Shown here one piece after another: positions 5,458-30,849 of a stretch of 64,000 nucleotides of DNA; the stretch's first letter is position 1; each line of letters starts with the position of its first letter. The stretch is from Parvibaculum indicum (GTDB lineage Bacteria; Pseudomonadota; Alphaproteobacteria; Parvibaculales; Parvibaculaceae). Location of the stretch: the NCBI RefSeq assembly GCF_011762095.1, contig NZ_JAASQO010000006.1, positions 124,001 through 188,000 of the forward strand. The letters run 5' to 3'. The notes under the pieces were generated by a model, which was not told where the DNA came from, did not search any database, and saw only the letters and a list, made by a program, of their open reading frames with translations. Made by a program: the position numbers and the translations under genes.

Positions 5458-6486
5458 TCAGTCCGCCTGCGGCCGCAACAGGTAATGGCTGACACCCCAG
5501 GCCGTGCCGTTCTCATGGCCGAAGAGCCCGGCCGTTGCGAGAAAGAAGAGCCGCCAGCGACGGAACCAGACGCCTGCCTCATTGCCATAGACGTCGCTCA
5601 ATATGCGGCGGATGGCGGGTGCATTCGCATCGTAGTTTTCCAGCCAGTCGAGCGCGGTGCGTTGATAATGTTTGCCGTTCCAGTTCCAGTCCTGCTCGAC
5701 CTCGAAAAGCTCGGGGAATTGTCGGATCAGGCCGTGGCTCGGCATATTACCGCCCGTGAAGAAATACTGGGCGATCCAGTCATTGCCGTCTTCATGGTCG
5801 AAGCGGTACGGCGCATTGCAATGCGAGAAGACATGGATGAAGAGGCGGCCTTCGGGGTTCAGCCATGTCCTGACGCGTTTCAGCAGATCGTACCAGTTCG
5901 TCATATGCTCGAACATTTCGATGCTGATCGCGCGGTCGAACTTGCGATCCGTCTCGAACACATTCATGTCCGCGGTGATGACTTCGAGGTTGTCGATGCC
6001 GCGCTTTTTTGCCTCCGCTTCGATGAAGGCGCGCTGCGAAGCGGAGTTGGAGACGGAGACGATGCGCGAATTCGGATAGGTCGCAGCCATGTAGAGCGAG
6101 AGCGATCCCCAGCCGCAGCCGAGTTCCAGAATATCCTGTCCGTCGGCAAGGCCTGCGCGCTCGCAGGTGATCCGCAGCGCGGCTTCTTCCGCCTCGTCCA
6201 GGCTAGCCCCGTCATGCTGGTAGAAGCAGCAGGAATATTTCAGATGCGAACCGAGCGCGAGCTTGAAGAAGTCGGCGGGTAGTTCGTAATGCTGTTCATT
6301 GGCTTCGTCGGTGAAAAGCGCGACAGGGCTTTGCCGCATCATTTCGGCGAAAGCGCGTTCCTCACTTGAGGGCAGATCCATCAATCGCCTGTTCGTGCTG
6401 GAGACGCGCATTCCGATCCCCGCCTTGAGCAGGCTGTCGGGAAGCGGCGCATGTTCGGCAAGCGAAACAGTCAGAGATTTCAGCAT
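5458..6486 (-). CDS. Cyclopropane-fatty-acyl-phospholipid synthase-family methyltransferase
   Basis: The 342-residue protein has a SAM-binding core with ILELGCGWGSLSLYMA (about residues 119-134), then VSNSASQRAFIEAEAKKRG and FDRAISIEMFEHM, which are characteristic of the CFA synthase superfamily. The segment NEQHYELPADFFKLALG also fits. The enzymes use SAM to modify unsaturated acyl chains of membrane phospholipids. The protein is shorter than classical Cfa (about 380-400) because the N-terminal domain is reduced. It is followed 19 bases upstream on the same strand by the DUF1295 gene, a pairing seen in stress-inducible lipid-modification operons of alphaproteobacteria. The exact product (cyclopropane or another methylated acyl chain) is not determined. 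Confidence 0.8.
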   Translation of the reverse strand: MLKSLTVSLAEHAPLPDSLLKAGIGMRVSSTNRRLMDLPSSEERAFAEMMRQSPVALFTDEANEQHYELPADFFKLALGSHLKYSCCFYQHDGASLDEAEEAALRITCERAGLADGQDILELGCGWGSLSLYMAATYPNSRIVSVSNSASQRAFIEAEAKKRGIDNLEVITADMNVFETDRKFDRAISIEMFEHMTNWYDLLKRVRTWLNPEGRLFIHVFSHCNAPYRFDHEDGNDWIAQYFFTGGNMPSHGLIRQFPELFEVEQDWNWNGKHYQRTALDWLENYDANAPAIRRILSDVYGNEAGVWFRRWRLFFLATAGLFGHENGTAWGVSHYLLRPQAD

Positions 6487-23579: not shown

Positions 23580-24584
23580 ATGCGGCGTATCTCCCAAAGC
23601 TGGCGGCAGGGAGCGATCACGGTAACGGTGCTGGCCCTTGTCGGCTATCTCGCGCTGTCCGTCATCGCGGATGGCGATCGCCTCATGGAGTCCCTGGCGG
23701 CGATCGGCTGGGGCCGGCTCGCCCTGGTGCTGATGCTTTCCCTGGCCAATTACGCTTTGCGCTTCTGGCGCTGGCAGCTTTATCTCGGCTGGCTTGGCCA
23801 TGCCGTGCCAGCATGGCGCAGTCTTCTCGTCTATCTGAGCGGATTTGCGCTTACCGTGAGCCCCGGCAAGGCCGGTGAGGCGGTGCGGTGCCTCTATCTG
23901 CGGCGCGACGGCGTTCCCTATTCCACGGGGCTGGCGATGATGTTCGTGGAGCGGCTGCTCGACCTTATCGCTATCCTGGTTCTGGCATCCTTCATCCTTC
24001 TGGCGCGGCGGGATCTGGCCTGGACGGTCGGCTTCTTTGCCCTATGCGTCGCATTCGGGCTGGTCGTGCTGCATAACCGTCGCACACCGGGTCTGCTGGT
24101 TGCGCTGGGGGCTCGTTTCGGCGCGCGCGCGGCCGGGGTCGCGGATTGGCTGTCCACGACGCTTATGCATGCCCGCGAGTTGCTGCGCTGGGGGCGTCTT
24201 GTGCCTGTCCTGGCAATTGCGATCCTCTCTTGGGGGGCGGAGGGGGTCGGTGTCTGGGTTCTTGCAAGCGCTTTTCCGGCGAGCCCCGATCTTGTCTTTT
24301 CCATCGGCGTGTACGGACTGGCGATCCTGGCCGGCGCGGCGGCGGTGTTCCTGCCTGCCGGGCTCGGCGGCACCGAAGCTGCCATGACTGGTCTTTTGCT
24401 GGCTGCCGGGCTCTCCCTGCCGGAAGCGGTGGCGGTCACCCTGATCTGTCGGCTTGCAACGTTGTGGTTTGCCGTTGGCTTGGGCGCGGTCGCGCTTCTC
24501 TGGCTCGAATATCGCGGAGGCGACGGTGAGGATTTGGGCAAAGCTCGCCCTGCCGAGCTGCATCCGGGGGAGGCCTCCCAATGA
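23580..24584 (+). CDS. YbhN/LPG-synthase-type transmembrane protein
   Basis: The 334-residue protein has about eight membrane segments and the family signature region SGFALTVSPGKAGEAVRCLY and FLPAGLGGTEAAMTGLLLAAG, seen in the flippase-like membrane domain of lysylphosphatidylglycerol synthases (UPF0104). It is the first gene of a tightly overlapping set with the UbiA-like enzyme, DprE1 and DprE2 (ATGA overlap at 24581). Its position suggests a role in moving or handling decaprenyl-phospho-arabinose or another polyprenyl-linked product across the inner membrane, which is inference. A GAGG lies about eleven bases before the ATG. Confidence 0.8.
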   Translation: MRRISQSWRQGAITVTVLALVGYLALSVIADGDRLMESLAAIGWGRLALVLMLSLANYALRFWRWQLYLGWLGHAVPAWRSLLVYLSGFALTVSPGKAGEAVRCLYLRRDGVPYSTGLAMMFVERLLDLIAILVLASFILLARRDLAWTVGFFALCVAFGLVVLHNRRTPGLLVALGARFGARAAGVADWLSTTLMHARELLRWGRLVPVLAIAILSWGAEGVGVWVLASAFPASPDLVFSIGVYGLAILAGAAAVFLPAGLGGTEAAMTGLLLAAGLSLPEAVAVTLICRLATLWFAVGLGAVALLWLEYRGGDGEDLGKARPAELHPGEASQ

Positions 24585-26023
24585 ATGAAACGCCCCAGTT
24601 TGCGACGGAATCTGTTCTCTGCGTAGATCTCGACGGCACATTGTCGCGTACGGACACTCTGATCGAAACCCTGCTGATGCTGGTAAAGCAAAGGCCCTTG
24701 GCGGTGTTGCTTCTACCGTTCTGGCTGATGCGCGGCCGGGCGGCCTTCAAGGCGGCGATTGCGCGCGCGGTCCGTTTCGATCCGGAGAGCCTTGCCTATA
24801 ATGAGGAGCTGGTCGACTGGCTGCGCGCTGAAAAAGCGGCAGGACGGCGTATCGTGCTGGCAACCGCGGCAGATGAGCGGATCGCCCGGCCTATTGCGGC
24901 GCATCTGGGTATCTTCGATGATGTGATCGCCAGCGACGGCTCGGCCAACCGCAAGGGCAAGGCCAAGGCGGCAGCGCTGCGCAACGCCTATGGCAGTTTC
25001 GTCTATGTCGCGAATGCCGATGTGGACGTGCCCGTCTGGGAAGCGGCCGACGGGGCCGTGCTTGTCGCGGGCTCGCCGCGTATTGCGAGGCGACTTTCGG
25101 GCCGAGTGTCGTTCGCGCGTGTATTCGGTCCGTCTTCGGAGCGTCCGGCCTGGCGTTTGTGGCTGCGGCAGTTGCGGGTGCATCAATGGGCGAAGAACGC
25201 GCTCATTTTCGTGCCGCTGGTGCTCGCGCATCAGATCACCAATCCGGAAAAGCTTTCCATCGCCGCGATGGCGTTCCTTGCCTTCAGTCTTTGTGCCTCA
25301 AGCGTCTATGTGCTGAACGACCTTCTGGATCTGGGATCCGATCGCCGGCATGTCACAAAGAAGAGCAGGCCCTTCGCAGCCGGTGCTCTGCCGCTGGCGG
25401 CAGGGTTCACGATGATCCCGCTTCTGCTCGTGCCGGCCTTTGCGATTTCTTTCGCGCTCGATATCGGTTTTGCAGCTGTGCTTGCGGGCTATTACGCGCT
25501 CACGCTGGCTTATTCGCTTGAGCTCAAGCGGCAGCCGGTGGTCGATGTCTTCACGCTTGCGGGCCTTTATACGATCCGGCTTTTCGCCGGTGGTGTGGTC
25601 GCCGGCGTACATCTTTCACCTTGGCTGCTGGCGTTTTCGATTTTCCTTTTTCTGAGCCTCGCTATCGTTAAGCGTGTGGGCGAGTTGCAGGGGCTTCCCC
25701 GTGACAGCGCGCCTGCGCTGCACGGTCGGGGCTATGGGCGGGACGATCTACCGATCCTGACCGCGCTCGGTGTTGCCTCGGGCTATGCAAGCGTGGTGAT
25801 CTTTTCGCTCTATATCAATGCACCGGACAGCCGGGCGCTTTATCCTCATCACGAGTTTCTATGGCTTTTCGTGCCCCTTATTCTCTTCTGGATCAGCAGG
25901 GTCTGGCTCAAGACCTGGCGCGGCGAAATGCATGATGACCCCATCGTATTTGCGCTGAAAGACAGGGTGAGCCAGTTGACGGCTTTGGCCGCAGGTGGCG
26001 TTCTTCTGGGATCGGCGCTTTAG
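24581..26023 (+). CDS. HAD phosphatase fused to UbiA-type decaprenyl-phosphate phosphoribosyltransferase
   Basis: Residues about 10-190 are a HAD phosphatase (VDLDGTLSRTDTL, D16 and D18). Residues about 195-480 are a UbiA prenyltransferase with nine or so membrane segments. They include the metal-binding motif NDLLDLGSDRRHVTKKSRP and a second region YSLELKRQPVVDVFTLAGLY. This is the arrangement of decaprenyl-phosphate 5-phosphoribose synthase joined to the phosphatase that removes the 5-phosphate. The product, decaprenyl-phospho-ribose, is the substrate for the DprE1/DprE2 pair encoded next. Comparable genes occur in mycobacteria and in the Azorhizobium noeC region. The start overlaps the preceding stop by four bases. 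Confidence 0.85.
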   Translation: MNETPQFATESVLCVDLDGTLSRTDTLIETLLMLVKQRPLAVLLLPFWLMRGRAAFKAAIARAVRFDPESLAYNEELVDWLRAEKAAGRRIVLATAADERIARPIAAHLGIFDDVIASDGSANRKGKAKAAALRNAYGSFVYVANADVDVPVWEAADGAVLVAGSPRIARRLSGRVSFARVFGPSSERPAWRLWLRQLRVHQWAKNALIFVPLVLAHQITNPEKLSIAAMAFLAFSLCASSVYVLNDLLDLGSDRRHVTKKSRPFAAGALPLAAGFTMIPLLLVPAFAISFALDIGFAAVLAGYYALTLAYSLELKRQPVVDVFTLAGLYTIRLFAGGVVAGVHLSPWLLAFSIFLFLSLAIVKRVGELQGLPRDSAPALHGRGYGRDDLPILTALGVASGYASVVIFSLYINAPDSRALYPHHEFLWLFVPLILFWISRVWLKTWRGEMHDDPIVFALKDRVSQLTALAAGGVLLGSAL

Positions 26024-26024
26024 A

Positions 26025-27338
26025 ATGCCTGATGATCTCCAAAGCTGGGGGCGTTTTCCAGCAGATCCCCACCAGAAAGCGGTCGCATGGCGTGATCGTC
26101 GCCAGATGCCCATGCTTGACGACGGTCCGGTTCTCGCGCGCGGCAATGGACGTTCCTATGGCGATGTCTGCCTGAACGATGAGGGCACGCTTCTCACCAC
26201 GCGCGCTCTCGACAAGTTCGTCCTGTTTGATGCAGAGGCAGGCGAGCTGGTGTGCGAGCCGGGCGTGCTCCTCTCAGACATTCTCGATCTTGTAGTGCCG
26301 AAGGGCTGGTTTCTGCCGGTCGTGCCGGGCACAAGGCTCGTGACGGTGGGGGGTGCGATTGCCAATGATGTTCATGGCAAGAACCATCACCGTTTTGGAA
26401 CCTTCGGTACCAATGTTCTCGACTTCCGCCTGTTGCGGTCCGACGGGACCGCGCTCACCTGCTCCCGGGACGAGAATGCCGAGCTTTTCGCCGCGACGAT
26501 TGGCGGGCTCGGGCTGACGGGGCTCATTGCCGAGGCGCGGCTGAAGCTTCGCCCTATCGCCTCGAGCTATCTGGAAGGCGAGCAATTCCGTTTCGATACG
26601 CTGGACGAGTTTTTTGCCCTGTCGGAGGCATCGGAAGCGTCTCACGAATATACGGCTGCCTGGATCGACTGTCTGGCGGAAGGTGACAGGCTGGGGCGGG
26701 GGCATTTCATGCGCGCCAATCATGCGGCGGATGGGGGGCTCGATCCGGCCGCCCGGTCCCTGCCGCTTGCCGTGCCGCTGACACCGCCCTTGTCGCTCGT
26801 CAACCGGGCAAGCCTGCGTGTCTTCAACACGCTCTATTACGAGCGCCAGCGGGCGCATGAGGTGTCGCGGCGCTGGCATTTCGACCCTTATCTCTTTCCG
26901 CTCGACAGCATTGCGAACTGGAACCGGCTCTATGGCCCCAAAGGGTTCCTGCAATATCAATGCGTGGTGCCGGGCAATGAGGCGCGGGCGGCTTCTGCGG
27001 AACTGCTCAAGGAAATCAGCCGGTCGGGCCAGGGCTCCCCGCTGGTTGTCTTCAAGATGTTCGGCGATGTCGCGTCGCCAGGCCTGCTGTCCTTCCCCAT
27101 GAAGGGCGCGACTCTGGCGCTCGATTTCCCCCTTCTCGGCGAGCGGACGTTCGAACTGCTCGACCGGCTGGACGCAATCGTCCGGCAAGCCGGCGGGCGG
27201 CTATATCCGGCCAAGGATGCGAGGATGAGCGCGGAGATGTTCGAAAAGGGCTATCCGGCGCTGGACCGTTTCATGAAGCAGATCGATCCGGTATTCGGGT
27301 CCGGCTTCCAACGCCGTGTGATGGGGAGGGCGCGATGA
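26025..27338 (+). CDS. dprE1: DprE1-like decaprenylphosphoryl-ribose oxidase subunit
   Basis: The 437-residue FAD-linked oxidase has the PCMH-type FAD motif (GNGRSYGDVCLND, PVVPGTRLVTVGGAIANDVH) and the C-terminal PAKDARMSAEMFEKGYP stretch. That stretch matches the active-site lysine region of mycobacterial DprE1. It oxidises the 2-hydroxyl of decaprenyl-phospho-ribose; DprE2 then reduces the keto product to the arabinose epimer. ATG 26025 lies one base after the UbiA stop, implying coupled translation; a GTG at 25995 is a weaker alternative. The stop overlaps the dprE2 start (ATGA). Confidence 0.9.
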   Translation: MPDDLQSWGRFPADPHQKAVAWRDRRQMPMLDDGPVLARGNGRSYGDVCLNDEGTLLTTRALDKFVLFDAEAGELVCEPGVLLSDILDLVVPKGWFLPVVPGTRLVTVGGAIANDVHGKNHHRFGTFGTNVLDFRLLRSDGTALTCSRDENAELFAATIGGLGLTGLIAEARLKLRPIASSYLEGEQFRFDTLDEFFALSEASEASHEYTAAWIDCLAEGDRLGRGHFMRANHAADGGLDPAARSLPLAVPLTPPLSLVNRASLRVFNTLYYERQRAHEVSRRWHFDPYLFPLDSIANWNRLYGPKGFLQYQCVVPGNEARAASAELLKEISRSGQGSPLVVFKMFGDVASPGLLSFPMKGATLALDFPLLGERTFELLDRLDAIVRQAGGRLYPAKDARMSAEMFEKGYPALDRFMKQIDPVFGSGFQRRVMGRAR

Positions 27339-28072
27339 CGCGCATTGTGATTTTCGGCGCCACATCGGCGATCGCGCAGGCCGCTGCCCGGCAATGGGCG
27401 GCCGCAGGCGGTGCCCGCTTTGTGCTGGTGGGACGTAATGAGACCGCGCTGGGCGATATCGCCGCTGATCTGGTCGCACGCGGTGCCGAGGAAGCGACGA
27501 CGAAGCCCGCCGATCTGGCGGCGCTGGACGCACTCGGCGGTCTCTGTGCGGAGGCGGAAGAGGCGCTGGGCGGGATCGATATCGCGCTCATCGCCCATGG
27601 CGTCCTGCCCGACCAGGCCGAGGTGACCGCCTCGGCGGACGCCCTTCTCACAAATCTCGGCGTCAATGCGTTAAGCCCGGCCGCGCTGATGGTCGAACTC
27701 GGCCGGATCATGAAACGCCAGGGGCATGGGAATCTCGTTGTCATCTCATCCGTGGCGGGTGACCGGGGACGACCGAGCAACTGGGCCTATGGGGGCGCGA
27801 AGGCCATGCTCTCCGTGATGGGGGAGGGGATGGGCCTGGAACTCGACAGTGCCGGGGTCAATGTCCTCGTCGTAAAGCCCGGCTTCGTTGATACGCCGAT
27901 GACGGCGGATTTCCCGAAGGGGCCTTTATGGGCCTCGGCCGATCAGGTGGCCGGATCGATCGTGCGGGCGGTGCGGAGAAAACGGGGCGGTGTGTTATAT
28001 GCGCCGGGATGGTGGCGCTGGATCATGCTGGTGGTAGCTTTCGCGCCCGGCTTTCTGGTGAAGCGGCTCTGA
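27335..28072 (+). CDS. dprE2: DprE2-like decaprenylphosphoryl-2-keto-ribose reductase (SDR)
   Basis: The 245-residue short-chain dehydrogenase has the nucleotide motif IVIFGATSAIAQ (a TGxxxGxG variant), VISSVAGDRGR and the catalytic YGGAK. The C-terminus is hydrophobic (WWRWIMLVVAFAPGFLVKRL), as in DprE2 proteins that associate with membrane substrates. With DprE1 it completes the ribose-to-arabinose epimerisation on the decaprenyl carrier. It is the last gene of the operon; the IS1595-type element is inserted about 130 bases downstream. Confidence 0.9.
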   Translation: MTRIVIFGATSAIAQAAARQWAAAGGARFVLVGRNETALGDIAADLVARGAEEATTKPADLAALDALGGLCAEAEEALGGIDIALIAHGVLPDQAEVTASADALLTNLGVNALSPAALMVELGRIMKRQGHGNLVVISSVAGDRGRPSNWAYGGAKAMLSVMGEGMGLELDSAGVNVLVVKPGFVDTPMTADFPKGPLWASADQVAGSIVRAVRRKRGGVLYAPGWWRWIMLVVAFAPGFLVKRL

Positions 28073-28194
28073 GCCCGCGGAACGACGGGCTCTCCTGAAG
28101 AGGGCGTACGCATTAGGGCCGGAGCGGGCCGCTCGGTGCTCTGATACCGCATTCGACGACGGCGCACCCCTTGTATGAGCCCGAAGCGCTCATA

Positions 28195-28202
28195 AGGTTT
28201 AT
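28195..28202. repeat. Left copy of 8-bp target-site duplication
   Basis: AGGTTTAT directly precedes the left end of the mobile element and recurs at 30758-30765 directly after its right end. Confidence 0.9.
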
Positions 28203-28235
28203 CGGAACTATCGTCTTGCCACACAGAGCCACAAG
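28203..28235 (+). repeat. Left terminal inverted repeat
   Basis: Thirty-three bases matching the right end in inverted orientation, with the shared blocks ACTATCG and AGCCACAAG. It lies 15 bases before the transposase start. Confidence 0.85.
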
Positions 28236-28250
28236 CCCTATGTTGAGAAC

Positions 28251-29207
28251 ATGAGGAGAACGAACCTCACGCTGCGCGAGTTCAATGCGCTGTTTCCGGA
28301 CGAGGACGCCGCTCGGACGTGGTTCGAGCGCGCCCGTTGGCCGGATGGCCCGACGTGCTATCACTGCGGCGTGGTGAACGAGGCGCGGCGGATCGAGAGC
28401 CGCGGCATCTGGCGATGCCGGGCGTGCGGGAGACAGTTCTCGGTGACGGCCGGGACTCCGATGCACAAGACGCATCTGCCGCTGCTGACCTGGGCGCAGG
28501 CCATCTACCTGATCGTCTCGTCGTCCAAGGGCATCTCGTCGATGAAGCTCAGCGAGATGCTCGGCCTGCCCTACAGCACTGCCTGGCATCTGTCGCATCG
28601 CATCCGGGCGATGATGGCGGAGGACAGCCCGCTGCTGGCGGGCGTCGTCGAGATCGACGAGACTTACGGAGACGCTCCGCCGCGCAAGCGCGCCAAGTCG
28701 AGGCGCGATGACGACGGTCCGCCGCCGTCGGATCCGACCGGCCGAGGCACGAAACGGCCGCTCCTTCTGGTCGCGGCCGAACGTGATGGCGACGTCTTCA
28801 CCAGCATCATCCCGACGCATGGCCGCAAGGCGATCTCCGAGGCCCTGCAAGGTGTTCTGGATGCCTCAGCGGTCGTCATGACCGACGGCCTGCCCGCCTA
28901 CAAGCATCTGCGCAAGGACCGGGCGCACCTCGCGGTCAACCACAGCCAGCGGAAGTACGCCCGTACCGACGAGGCAACCGGGCGCCGCGTCCATGTCAAT
29001 CGCGTGGAGTCCTTCAACGGGTTCCTGGGCCGGGCCGTCGTCGGCGTCTTTCACTTCGTCTCGCCGAAGCACCTGGGTCGCTACGCGGGCGAGGCCGCGT
29101 TCTGCTGGAACCGGAAGAAGAGTTCCTGCCTTGATCGCATGGTCTCGCTGATCCGCAACGGCGAGGGTCGCATGCTGCCCTGCGACTTCCTGACGGCGGC
29201 GGCGTGA
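28251..29207 (+). CDS. IS1595-family (ISXO2-like) transposase
   Basis: The 318-residue protein begins with a zinc ribbon (CYHCG, about 28 residues later CRACG), then a helix-turn-helix-like part (SSMKLSEMLGLPYSTAWHLS). The catalytic domain has GVVEIDETYG, VVMTDGLPAYKHL and HVNRVESFNGFLGR, giving the acidic residues expected of ISXO2-like DDE-type enzymes. It has the usual length and appears intact. Its TGA overlaps the ATG of the next gene (TGATG), so the downstream nuclease is translationally coupled to it. Confidence 0.93.
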   Translation: MRRTNLTLREFNALFPDEDAARTWFERARWPDGPTCYHCGVVNEARRIESRGIWRCRACGRQFSVTAGTPMHKTHLPLLTWAQAIYLIVSSSKGISSMKLSEMLGLPYSTAWHLSHRIRAMMAEDSPLLAGVVEIDETYGDAPPRKRAKSRRDDDGPPPSDPTGRGTKRPLLLVAAERDGDVFTSIIPTHGRKAISEALQGVLDASAVVMTDGLPAYKHLRKDRAHLAVNHSQRKYARTDEATGRRVHVNRVESFNGFLGRAVVGVFHFVSPKHLGRYAGEAAFCWNRKKSSCLDRMVSLIRNGEGRMLPCDFLTAAA

Positions 29208-30739
29208 TGGCGAAGAAACCCGAACACCGGCCTATCCATCGCACGGACCTGCTGCCGTCGAACATGACCGCTGGCAAGGAAGCGGCCGTGCGCGAGATGC
29301 TGGCAGCCTACCGGACTGGCGCCGTCATGCTCGGCCGTGAGCAATGGCGTCTGTTCTTCGAGACCGGTCGGTTCAACAAGAACTTCGACAAGGACAAGAA
29401 AACCTACGCCGCGGTCATCGGCGCAGCCAACCGCGTGCAGATGTGCCGCTACCAGGTCGTCGGGGCCTTGCAGTCCTGGGTCTCAAACCGTTCCAACGAG
29501 TTCCGCGAGACCGTCGTCCGCTCGTCGCTGCCGCCCGAGACGAAGCACATGCTGCACGTCGTCAACAAGGCCGGAGCGTGCTTCAGCAAGGACGACGTGT
29601 TCATGCCGAAGAGCGGAGAAGTCATCCCGGACGACCTCCGCCGCCTGGCGCGTTCCATCATGCGGCACGTCATGGCGAAGCATCGGCGGCCGAACCTGTC
29701 TCGTATCTCCATGCGCCTCGACCGCCGCGCCGGGGCGATCTCGCGCCCGGCGGCGGCCGACCAGAACGGCCGGGTCGGCTGGTGGGTGCGGCTCTCCACC
29801 ATGGAGAAAGGCCGCAAGATCGACGCTCCGCTGCTGACCTACGACTTCCACGAAAAGCGCCCCGGCCGAGTCACCGACGGCATCCAGATCAACCTGGACC
29901 GCGACGGACGGCTGACGTTCGGCGTGGTCACCGACATGGGCGAAGCGTGTGCCGCAAGCCGCGACGCCTATGACGGCAATGGGGAAATCGCCCTCGACTT
30001 TGGGCTCTCGACGCTCTTCGCCACGTCCGAAGGCCAGCTCCTCGGCCAGGGCTGGCTCAAGGAGCTACGCCGCTACGATGAGCGCATCACGAAGATCGCC
30101 CGCGGCATGCAGCGCCGCGGACTCAAGCCGCGGCAAAGCCGACGCTACAAGAATGCCGTCACGGCCCTGCGCGGCTTCCTGCGCACCGAGATCGGCCGCG
30201 TGTTCAACAAACTGGTCGAGCAAGGTCAACCGAAGGAGCTGGTCCTGGAGCGGCTGGACTTCCGGAACCCAACCCTGTCCCGGCGCCTGAACCGCATCCT
30301 CCAGAACGCCGGACGGTCGATCATCCATGCCAAGCTGCAAGACCTCGAAGAGCGCCTTGGCATCACCTCGACCGAGGTCAACCCGGCCTACACGTCGCAG
30401 ACCTGCTCGTGCTGCGGCTACCTGGACAAGAAAAACCGCCGCGACCAGAAGACTTTCCGCTGTCTCTGGTGCGGCCACGTCATGCACGCCGACCTCAATG
30501 CGGCACGGAACATCGGCGAGCGCCGTGCGCTCGCCATCGGCTCCGGGTTCCACGGGAAGGCGGCGGTCCTTGCCGAACTGGTGCGCCAGTTCGGTGAGCG
30601 ACGGGTCTATTCGACTCGATCCGGTGGGCGGGGCTCCACCGTCGACCCGCTCTCAACCAACCCCTACTTCAAGGGCAAGGTCGAACGCGGCTCGGATGTC
30701 GCCAAAGCTCGGCCGTCACAAAATCTTGTGGCTGCGTGA
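29207..30739 (+). CDS. tnpB: TnpB-like RuvC endonuclease inside the IS1595 element
   Basis: The 510-residue protein has the TnpB/Cas12-type catalytic layout near its C-terminus: ALDFGLSTLFA with D264 (RuvC-I), LVLERLDF with E348 (RuvC-II), a four-cysteine zinc finger (C400, C403, C419, C422) and HADLNAARNIGER with D429 (RuvC-III). The N-terminal 250 residues are basic and would hold the nucleic-acid-binding lobe. It is longer than common IS605-type TnpB (about 400). TnpB proteins are RNA-guided DNA nucleases that help IS200/IS605 and IS607 elements persist; a link to an IS1595 transposase is uncommon. All active-site residues are present, so it may be functional. Confidence 0.88.
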   Translation: MAKKPEHRPIHRTDLLPSNMTAGKEAAVREMLAAYRTGAVMLGREQWRLFFETGRFNKNFDKDKKTYAAVIGAANRVQMCRYQVVGALQSWVSNRSNEFRETVVRSSLPPETKHMLHVVNKAGACFSKDDVFMPKSGEVIPDDLRRLARSIMRHVMAKHRRPNLSRISMRLDRRAGAISRPAAADQNGRVGWWVRLSTMEKGRKIDAPLLTYDFHEKRPGRVTDGIQINLDRDGRLTFGVVTDMGEACAASRDAYDGNGEIALDFGLSTLFATSEGQLLGQGWLKELRRYDERITKIARGMQRRGLKPRQSRRYKNAVTALRGFLRTEIGRVFNKLVEQGQPKELVLERLDFRNPTLSRRLNRILQNAGRSIIHAKLQDLEERLGITSTEVNPAYTSQTCSCCGYLDKKNRRDQKTFRCLWCGHVMHADLNAARNIGERRALAIGSGFHGKAAVLAELVRQFGERRVYSTRSGGRGSTVDPLSTNPYFKGKVERGSDVAKARPSQNLVAA

Positions 30740-30757
30740 GCTAAAGCGATAGTGCCT
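30725..30757 (-). repeat. Right terminal inverted repeat
   Basis: Inverted partner of the left end, overlapping the last codons of the TnpB-like gene. Only 18 bases separate the gene's stop from the element's end. Confidence 0.85.
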
Positions 30758-30765
30758 AGGTTTAT
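30758..30765. repeat. Right copy of 8-bp target-site duplication
   Basis: AGGTTTAT immediately after the right end, identical to 28195-28202. Confidence 0.9.
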
Positions 30766-30849
30766 GGTATGTGTTTCAGGCACATGCACCGGCGCGACAG
30801 CACGGTCCAATGATGAGCAAGCGGCCCTCGGGCCGGAACAGAGGCAGGC

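Follow-up and report, generated by a model that had tools for sequence, protein, structure and literature searches.

An IS1595 element of Parvibaculum indicum that encloses a full-length TnpB-type gene

Bacterial TnpB usually accompanies two unrelated kinds of transposable element. IS200/IS605 elements have a Y1 transposase and leave no target duplication; IS1595 insertion sequences have terminal inverted repeats and an 8-bp target duplication. Here we describe an IS1595 element that encloses both its transposase gene (tnpA) and a full-length TnpB-type gene (tnpB). It lies at 28203–30757 of a 64,000-nt window of Parvibaculum indicum contig NZ_JAASQO010000006.1 (the window is the whole stretch analyzed, and coordinates are positions in it unless another locus is named). 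Three described systems are relevant. The TnpB of IS200/IS605 elements (ISDra2 type) is reported to use a target-adjacent motif (TAM) beside the left end and a guide from the right flank, and to bring about retention or gene drive in plasmids (PMC11870625, preprint). IS607 TnpBs of the RAGATH-18 type have the TAMs AGGAG or GAGGG (PMC11061315). Fanzor2* and Fanzor1 are TnpB-family nucleases lying within the inverted repeats and target duplications of eukaryotic DDE transposons, and the duplication is reported to be part of their RNA scaffold (PMC10711439). Because Fanzors in eukaryotic DDE transposons are already known, the lineage described here is no new category. It is a bacterial exception, a TnpB with a DDE transposase in records from several phyla. 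Among the open papers listed by full-text searches, judged by titles and the starts of abstracts, none reports a TnpB carried by a bacterial DDE element, whether IS1595 or another; a 2023 PNAS survey of TnpB diversity fell outside this search.

The first-pass annotation, made from the window's letters, held that inverted ends and an 8-bp duplication enclose both genes and that the two frames overlap as TGATG. Both points stand. The duplication AGGTTTAT is exact on the two sides, and the ends are real though imperfect (CGGAACTATCG / AGGCACTATCG; 32-nt arms 75% complementary). Exact 8-bp duplications occur at matching terminal positions in 12 elements of the group, including this one (two more match at 7/8 in L184 and 6/8 in L005), which places the window's duplication beyond chance. 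The tnpA product scores 153.6 bits against NCBIfam transpos_IS1595 (NF033547; cut-off 75) and 99.9 bits against Pfam DDE_Tnp_IS1595 (PF12762; cut-off 27). The transposase is thus of IS1595 type rather than the serine recombinase of IS607, and neither the Y1 transposase nor the missing duplication of IS200/IS605 is found. A search of the whole element against its own genome returned one match, the element itself. The insertion sequence ISPepr2 (L087) has the same transposase family, a near-identical outer end (CGGAACTATC) and an 8-bp duplication; unlike the window element, it lacks tnpB, and its duplication is not preceded by TA.

Other IS1595 elements also carry tnpB. Of the 22 loci where the TnpB match reaches 40% identity or more, 16 have an IS1595 transposase directly upstream of tnpB, an arrangement common enough that chance neighborhood of the two genes was rejected. 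The 22 loci are the window, L003–L006, L010, L012–L026 and L186 (L010, L021 and L025 are fragments); L184, L007, L008, L009, L011 and L182/L185 were left out as below 40% TnpB identity, and repeat views of single loci were counted once (L095 and L096 with L026, L181 with L184, L183 with L186). L184 (1320–4215) holds a divergent seventeenth IS1595–TnpB element, with a transposase 42% and a TnpB 32% identical, a 7/8 duplication and TA upstream of it. It is the only sub-40% relative with an IS1595 transposase. The others, at 30–36% TnpB identity, either carry an IS607 transposase (L007, L008) or show no transposase of IS1595 type (L009, L011, L185). At the window's own locus, tnpB without the transposase was not seen.

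The relatives come from plasmids (Indioceanicola L004 and L005; Salipiger L006), genome contigs (14 loci), viral contigs (L026) and genomes (L003, L184, L186). IS1595-borne members occur in records from Acidocella, Caenispirillum, Marivita, Paracoccus, Methylacidimicrobium (Verrucomicrobiota), a Trueperaceae metagenome-assembled genome (MAG) and a Gemmatimonadetes MAG; two of the phyla are represented by MAGs alone, and MAG binning may err for mobile DNA. The gene is rare: with the window's own genome counted each time, it is present in 2 of 40 genomes of the family (E 1e-20), 1 of 385 of the class (E 1e-30) and 3 of 398 of the phylum (E 1e-40). Another family, of 394 genomes, yielded only an internally deleted copy (L183/L186), and a scan of genome contigs with a single protein gave no confirmed relative.

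In a TnpB tree, the window TnpB and those of the other IS1595-borne elements join IS607-type TnpBs (support 100/99) to the exclusion of the IS605 sequences, which are three in number, two of them on long branches; an IS605 origin was rejected on this tree. The tree comparison proposed in the first-pass annotation thus sets this TnpB apart from the IS605 type. The nearest transposase-linked TnpBs are those of IS607 elements from Thermus (L007) and Bifidobacterium (L008), which resemble the window's in TnpB length and in having tnpB directly after the transposase gene but differ in that the transposase is annotated as IS607 (serine recombinase), not DDE. A one-clade test for the IS1595-borne TnpBs alone gave a log-likelihood difference of 3.17 (approximately unbiased test, p 0.315). 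In the transposase tree, the 13 tnpB-bearing sequences group together, and L097 and the tnpB-less L086 fall in that neighborhood too (support 87/70); L005, L020, L184 and L186 are not among the sequences in this tree. Pairwise distances of transposase and TnpB are strongly correlated over 13 elements (Mantel r 0.938, matched in 0 of 5000 permutations), and these sequence distances indicate that the two proteins diverged together. Co-divergence, the 16 loci and L184 support the annotation's claim that the transposase with which this TnpB moves is an unrelated one, of the DDE type that duplicates its target. The best explanation would be that an IS1595 transposon lineage acquired a TnpB of the IS607 lineage and kept it.

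A different pairing occurs in L097 (4007–6091, an IMG/VR contig), where an IS1595 transposase (48% identical) directly precedes a different, IS605-like TnpB (HTH_OrfB_IS605, OrfB_IS605 and TNB domains). N bases stand at the junction (4929) and inside tnpB (5470–5472), and the contig ends soon after, so this may be either a second capture or an assembly join. Among the loci gathered to that point, no IS605-like TnpB was found next to another IS1595 transposase; the only other match was a separate TnpB in L014.

The flanks point to how the nuclease may find its target. TA stands immediately before the left duplication in all 14 IS1595–TnpB elements with ends definable by inverted repeats and duplications, and in the right flank of only 1 of the 14. 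The pattern was noticed in the first three elements; the next nine agreed, as did the last two, found after the rule had been noted. The 14 are drawn from 17 IS1595-borne elements, with L013 and L020 (each on a contig that begins within tnpA) and L015 (left end unrecognized) dropped, L005 (6/8 duplication) and L184 (7/8) kept, and the left ends of L005 and L019 placed by eye. Among IS1595 elements without TnpB, 1 of 21 has the TA (one-sided Fisher test against 14/14, 6e-9), and the background rate in the flanks of 12 elements is 628/29750. These 21 controls were kept from 123 scanned loci (3/48, 6/9 and 12/66; L096 and L097 set aside). They include L090 and L091 with 7/8 duplications; the near misses L101, L103 and L105 (18/24 repeat match), all without TA, were excluded. 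The left duplication begins with A or T in 14/14 elements, and the element itself ends in CC (13 elements) or CT (one), never in TA. The pattern is consistent with a guide that starts at the duplication or one base later and a TAM that lies outside it. A TAM inside the duplication, expected if the duplication were scaffold, was rejected, as only its first base is clearly biased.

We infer that TA, perhaps followed by one A or T, is the TAM. Because TA precedes a variable 8-bp duplication in this group, the duplication would lie in the guide and not, as reported for Fanzors, in the scaffold. The candidate TA differs from the TAMs given for RAGATH-18-type IS607 TnpBs (PMC11061315). The predicted logic is like that reported for IS200/IS605 elements (PMC11870625), whose TnpBs lie outside the window TnpB's clade (as judged from the three IS605 sequences).

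Two observations on the controls weigh against a role of TnpB in this pattern. One TnpB-less element, L089, does have the TA, and a search there for tnpB remnants gave no significant match; and the controls belong to other transposase clades, so that the TA preference may be specific to this transposase clade. On this main alternative, TA would be an asymmetric target preference of this IS1595 transposase clade, with TnpB a true RNA-guided nuclease whose TAM lies elsewhere or coincides with the transposase target as in IS200/IS605. TnpB-bearing transposases do occupy one tree neighborhood (among those in the tree), where no TnpB-less member with definable ends was found; in the nearest one, L086, a second transposase gene follows (IS256-like by eye) and the ends were not found. 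A complete 14/14 also exceeds what selection after insertion might give. However, the TA is one-sided, and a symmetric DDE strand-transfer complex is expected to show it on both sides; 20 of the 21 controls, moreover, are without it. We regard a pure target preference as unlikely, though it deserves to be taken seriously.

At the right end, 13 main-group elements of diverged sequence have a recurring predicted fold in their last 52–60 nt: two stems, outer and middle, then a hairpin and a tail that stays unpaired (the starting positions were picked by eye, and the fit is poorest in L003 and L004). In the outer stem, the 3' coding region of tnpB is paired with the right inverted repeat. The complementarity of this stem was matched by re-paired strands in 3 of 5000 permutations with 13 elements and 0 of 5000 with 17, figures that are optimistic because the sequences are related; an upstream control region had no excess (4875/5000). 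Shuffling gave z from -1.3 to -5.1 for 12 folded right ends. Other results count against such an RNA domain. The outer stem is unconvincing in four Rhodobacter-type elements. Folding energy over a fixed 65 nt averages z -2.25 for 17 right ends (L004 +0.45) against -1.55 for an internal control region that may itself belong to the RNA, not a clear excess (Wilcoxon p 0.11). RNAalifold on sequence-only MAFFT alignments found no consensus at 64 nt, and Rfam gave no match. By its sequence, the 3' terminus of the element can fold as an RNA domain in which the right inverted repeat supplies one strand, and most of the main group have a similar one. A transcript through the tnpB 3' end would be the omegaRNA, its scaffold ending with the last base of the transposon or one base beyond.

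Taken together, these data probably describe an IS1595 cut-and-paste transposon with an RNA-guided TnpB of the IS607 lineage, a guide that starts with the duplication, TA as TAM, and cutting of empty sites. After an IS1595 transposon took up the TnpB, the RNA scaffold would have been rebuilt around the inverted repeat. The guide would consist of the target duplication and the host DNA that follows, so that each insertion writes a new guide; for the window element the predicted guide is AGGTTTATGGTATGTGTTTC, of a length assumed from known TnpBs. An empty allele (TA, duplication and flank) would be a full target. The filled allele would be spared at both junctions, because the right one has lost the TA (ending in CC or CT) and the left one matches over only about 8 bases. 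Empty copies, left after excision or present on a sister replicon, would be cut and repaired from the filled copy, by which the transposon would be retained and spread. Homing or retention by cutting is thus the suggested function.

The check for empty sites proposed in the first-pass annotation gave a partial answer. In L004, joining the flanks with one duplication gives an open reading frame through the junction, a precise empty site. A genus-mate of the window genome (G015) has both neighboring genes without the element, but divergence of the spacer between them prevents a single AGGTTTAT from being recognized, and an exact empty site was not found in genus-mates.

The sequences make a sharp prediction, in which the guide begins in the duplication, the TAM is the TA outside it and the inverted repeat doubles as RNA scaffold. 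The lineage thereby makes testable how a TnpB adapts to a transposase that duplicates its target. A bolder proposal, which we hold only tentatively and think improbable, is that the TnpB–omegaRNA complex, besides cutting empty sites, influences at which sites the DDE transposon inserts or persists. Nuclease and transposase would then form one system, its guide rewritten at each insertion and its survival almost confined to sites beside TA; L097, if it truly pairs an IS1595 transposase with a second type of TnpB, would mean that such capture has recurred in bacteria.

That tnpB is a passive passenger or accidental neighbor with no part in the element's life cycle seems very improbable to us, although some loci look that way. 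No IS1595 transposase match adjoins TnpB in 6 of the 22 loci (L003, L010, L012, L014, L021, L025), which we read as decayed or tnpB-only copies; L003 (genus-mate G036) and L014 (an uncultured alphaproteobacterial MAG) have an identical TnpB, no transposase upstream and a retained right transposon end. Frameshifts or stops interrupt tnpB in L005, L017, L018, L020 and L023. Damage also affects tnpA, which is broken in L004 and L005, and L186 (2048–3453) has an internal deletion that keeps both ends, the 3' part of tnpB and an exact duplication, presumably a non-autonomous copy. Against passenger status, the ends that flank tnpA also enclose tnpB in 14 elements, in some of which the genes are broken, and the two genes diverged in parallel. 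Pairwise NG86 dN/dS is 0.08–0.31 for tnpB (8 pairs) and 0.08–0.22 for tnpA (5 pairs), a sequence signature indicating purifying selection on tnpB with its catalytic residues kept.

The tnpB product is 510 aa from its ATG, and a GTG at 29204 is a possible alternative start. It scores 65.5 bits against Pfam PF07282 (cut-off 26.3) and matches PF01385 marginally (E 0.014, below cut-off). As the annotation stated, all RuvC and zinc-finger residues are present; D264, E348, D429 and C400/C403/C419/C422 are invariant in the 11 aligned sequences of the group. The best match among solved structures is a Cas12f (9nzq, E 2.6e-13); this TnpB, which possibly has a very short TAM, belongs to a clade without a close solved relative. 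In the AlphaFold model, residues 12–245 superpose on the Cas12f/TnpB-type structure 8dzj_B (Z 12.6, root-mean-square deviation (rmsd) 3.2 over 167) and residues 9–242 on ISDra2 TnpB 8ex9_A (Z 10.8, rmsd 3.2 over 151). The top Foldseek matches are Cas12f and TnpB (E 7.7e-13), with TM-scores of only 0.2–0.3. By the model, the protein appears to have the TnpB/Cas12f fold, its N-terminal half included.

Several points weigh against this assignment. The NCBIfam guided_TnpB score is 90.4, just under the cut-off of 100 (the distant member L184 reaches 119.2); as this is a score threshold and not a structural feature, we call the protein a divergent TnpB. Adding four more distant IS607-type or solo relatives to the alignment removes D429 from the conserved columns. 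The model, built from 11 sequences, is middling (mean predicted local distance difference test score (pLDDT) 69.9, predicted TM-score 0.50) and mostly poor after residue ~392, with much under pLDDT 50. Longer structural alignments extend to residue 436 at an rmsd above 10 A, so the relative placement of the model's two halves is tentative. TldRs derive from TnpB and have lost RuvC catalytic residues; a nuclease-dead, TldR-like repressor regulating the transposase or host genes is the least credible reading and was rejected, because D264, E348 and D429 are retained in all 11 aligned members and the triad is intact.

Table 1. Features of the IS1595 element and its flanks in the window
Feature	Position	Strand	Basis
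TA dinucleotide, candidate TAM, directly upstream of left duplication	28193..28194	+	sequence; 14/14 TnpB-bearing vs 1/21 TnpB-less elements
Left target-site duplication copy, 8 bp, AGGTTTAT	28195..28202	.	sequence
Left terminal inverted repeat, imperfect	28203..28213	+	sequence, repeat comparison
tnpA, IS1595-family (ISXO2-like) DDE transposase, 318 aa	28251..29207	+	profile matches
TGATG stop/start overlap of tnpA and tnpB	29205..29209	+	sequence
tnpB, 510 aa, full-length TnpB/Cas12f-like nuclease with intact RuvC triad and four-cysteine zinc finger	29207..30739	+	profiles, alignment, model
omegaRNA scaffold 3' domain, predicted: outer stem, middle stem, hairpin, 7-nt tail; overlaps tnpB 3' end and right inverted repeat	30698..30757	+	folding
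Right terminal inverted repeat; also supplies most of the outer RNA stem's 3' strand	30747..30757	-	sequence, folding
Right target-site duplication copy, AGGTTTAT; predicted first guide bases	30758..30765	.	sequence; guide role inferred from target-site data
Flanking host DNA, predicted remainder of guide	30766..30777	+	inference; length assumed from known TnpBs

Three further loci were recorded in the searches. L168 (386–2666), a Thermus plasmid, has a TnpB gene ~70 bp downstream of an IS630-type transposase gene. In L164 (2977–5456), a Roseomonas plasmid, an IS1595 transposase gene is overlapped by a hypothetical open reading frame and followed by a PIN-domain gene; these may be further cargo of IS1595 elements. 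In L185 (2810–5524), from a genome of the same phylum, two TnpB-like matches lie close together with no IS1595 transposase match.

Genes similar to a UbiA-family prenyltransferase, to DprE1 (366 bits against a cut-off of 500) and to DprE2 (168 bits against a cut-off of 250) occupy 24581–28072, just upstream of the window element.

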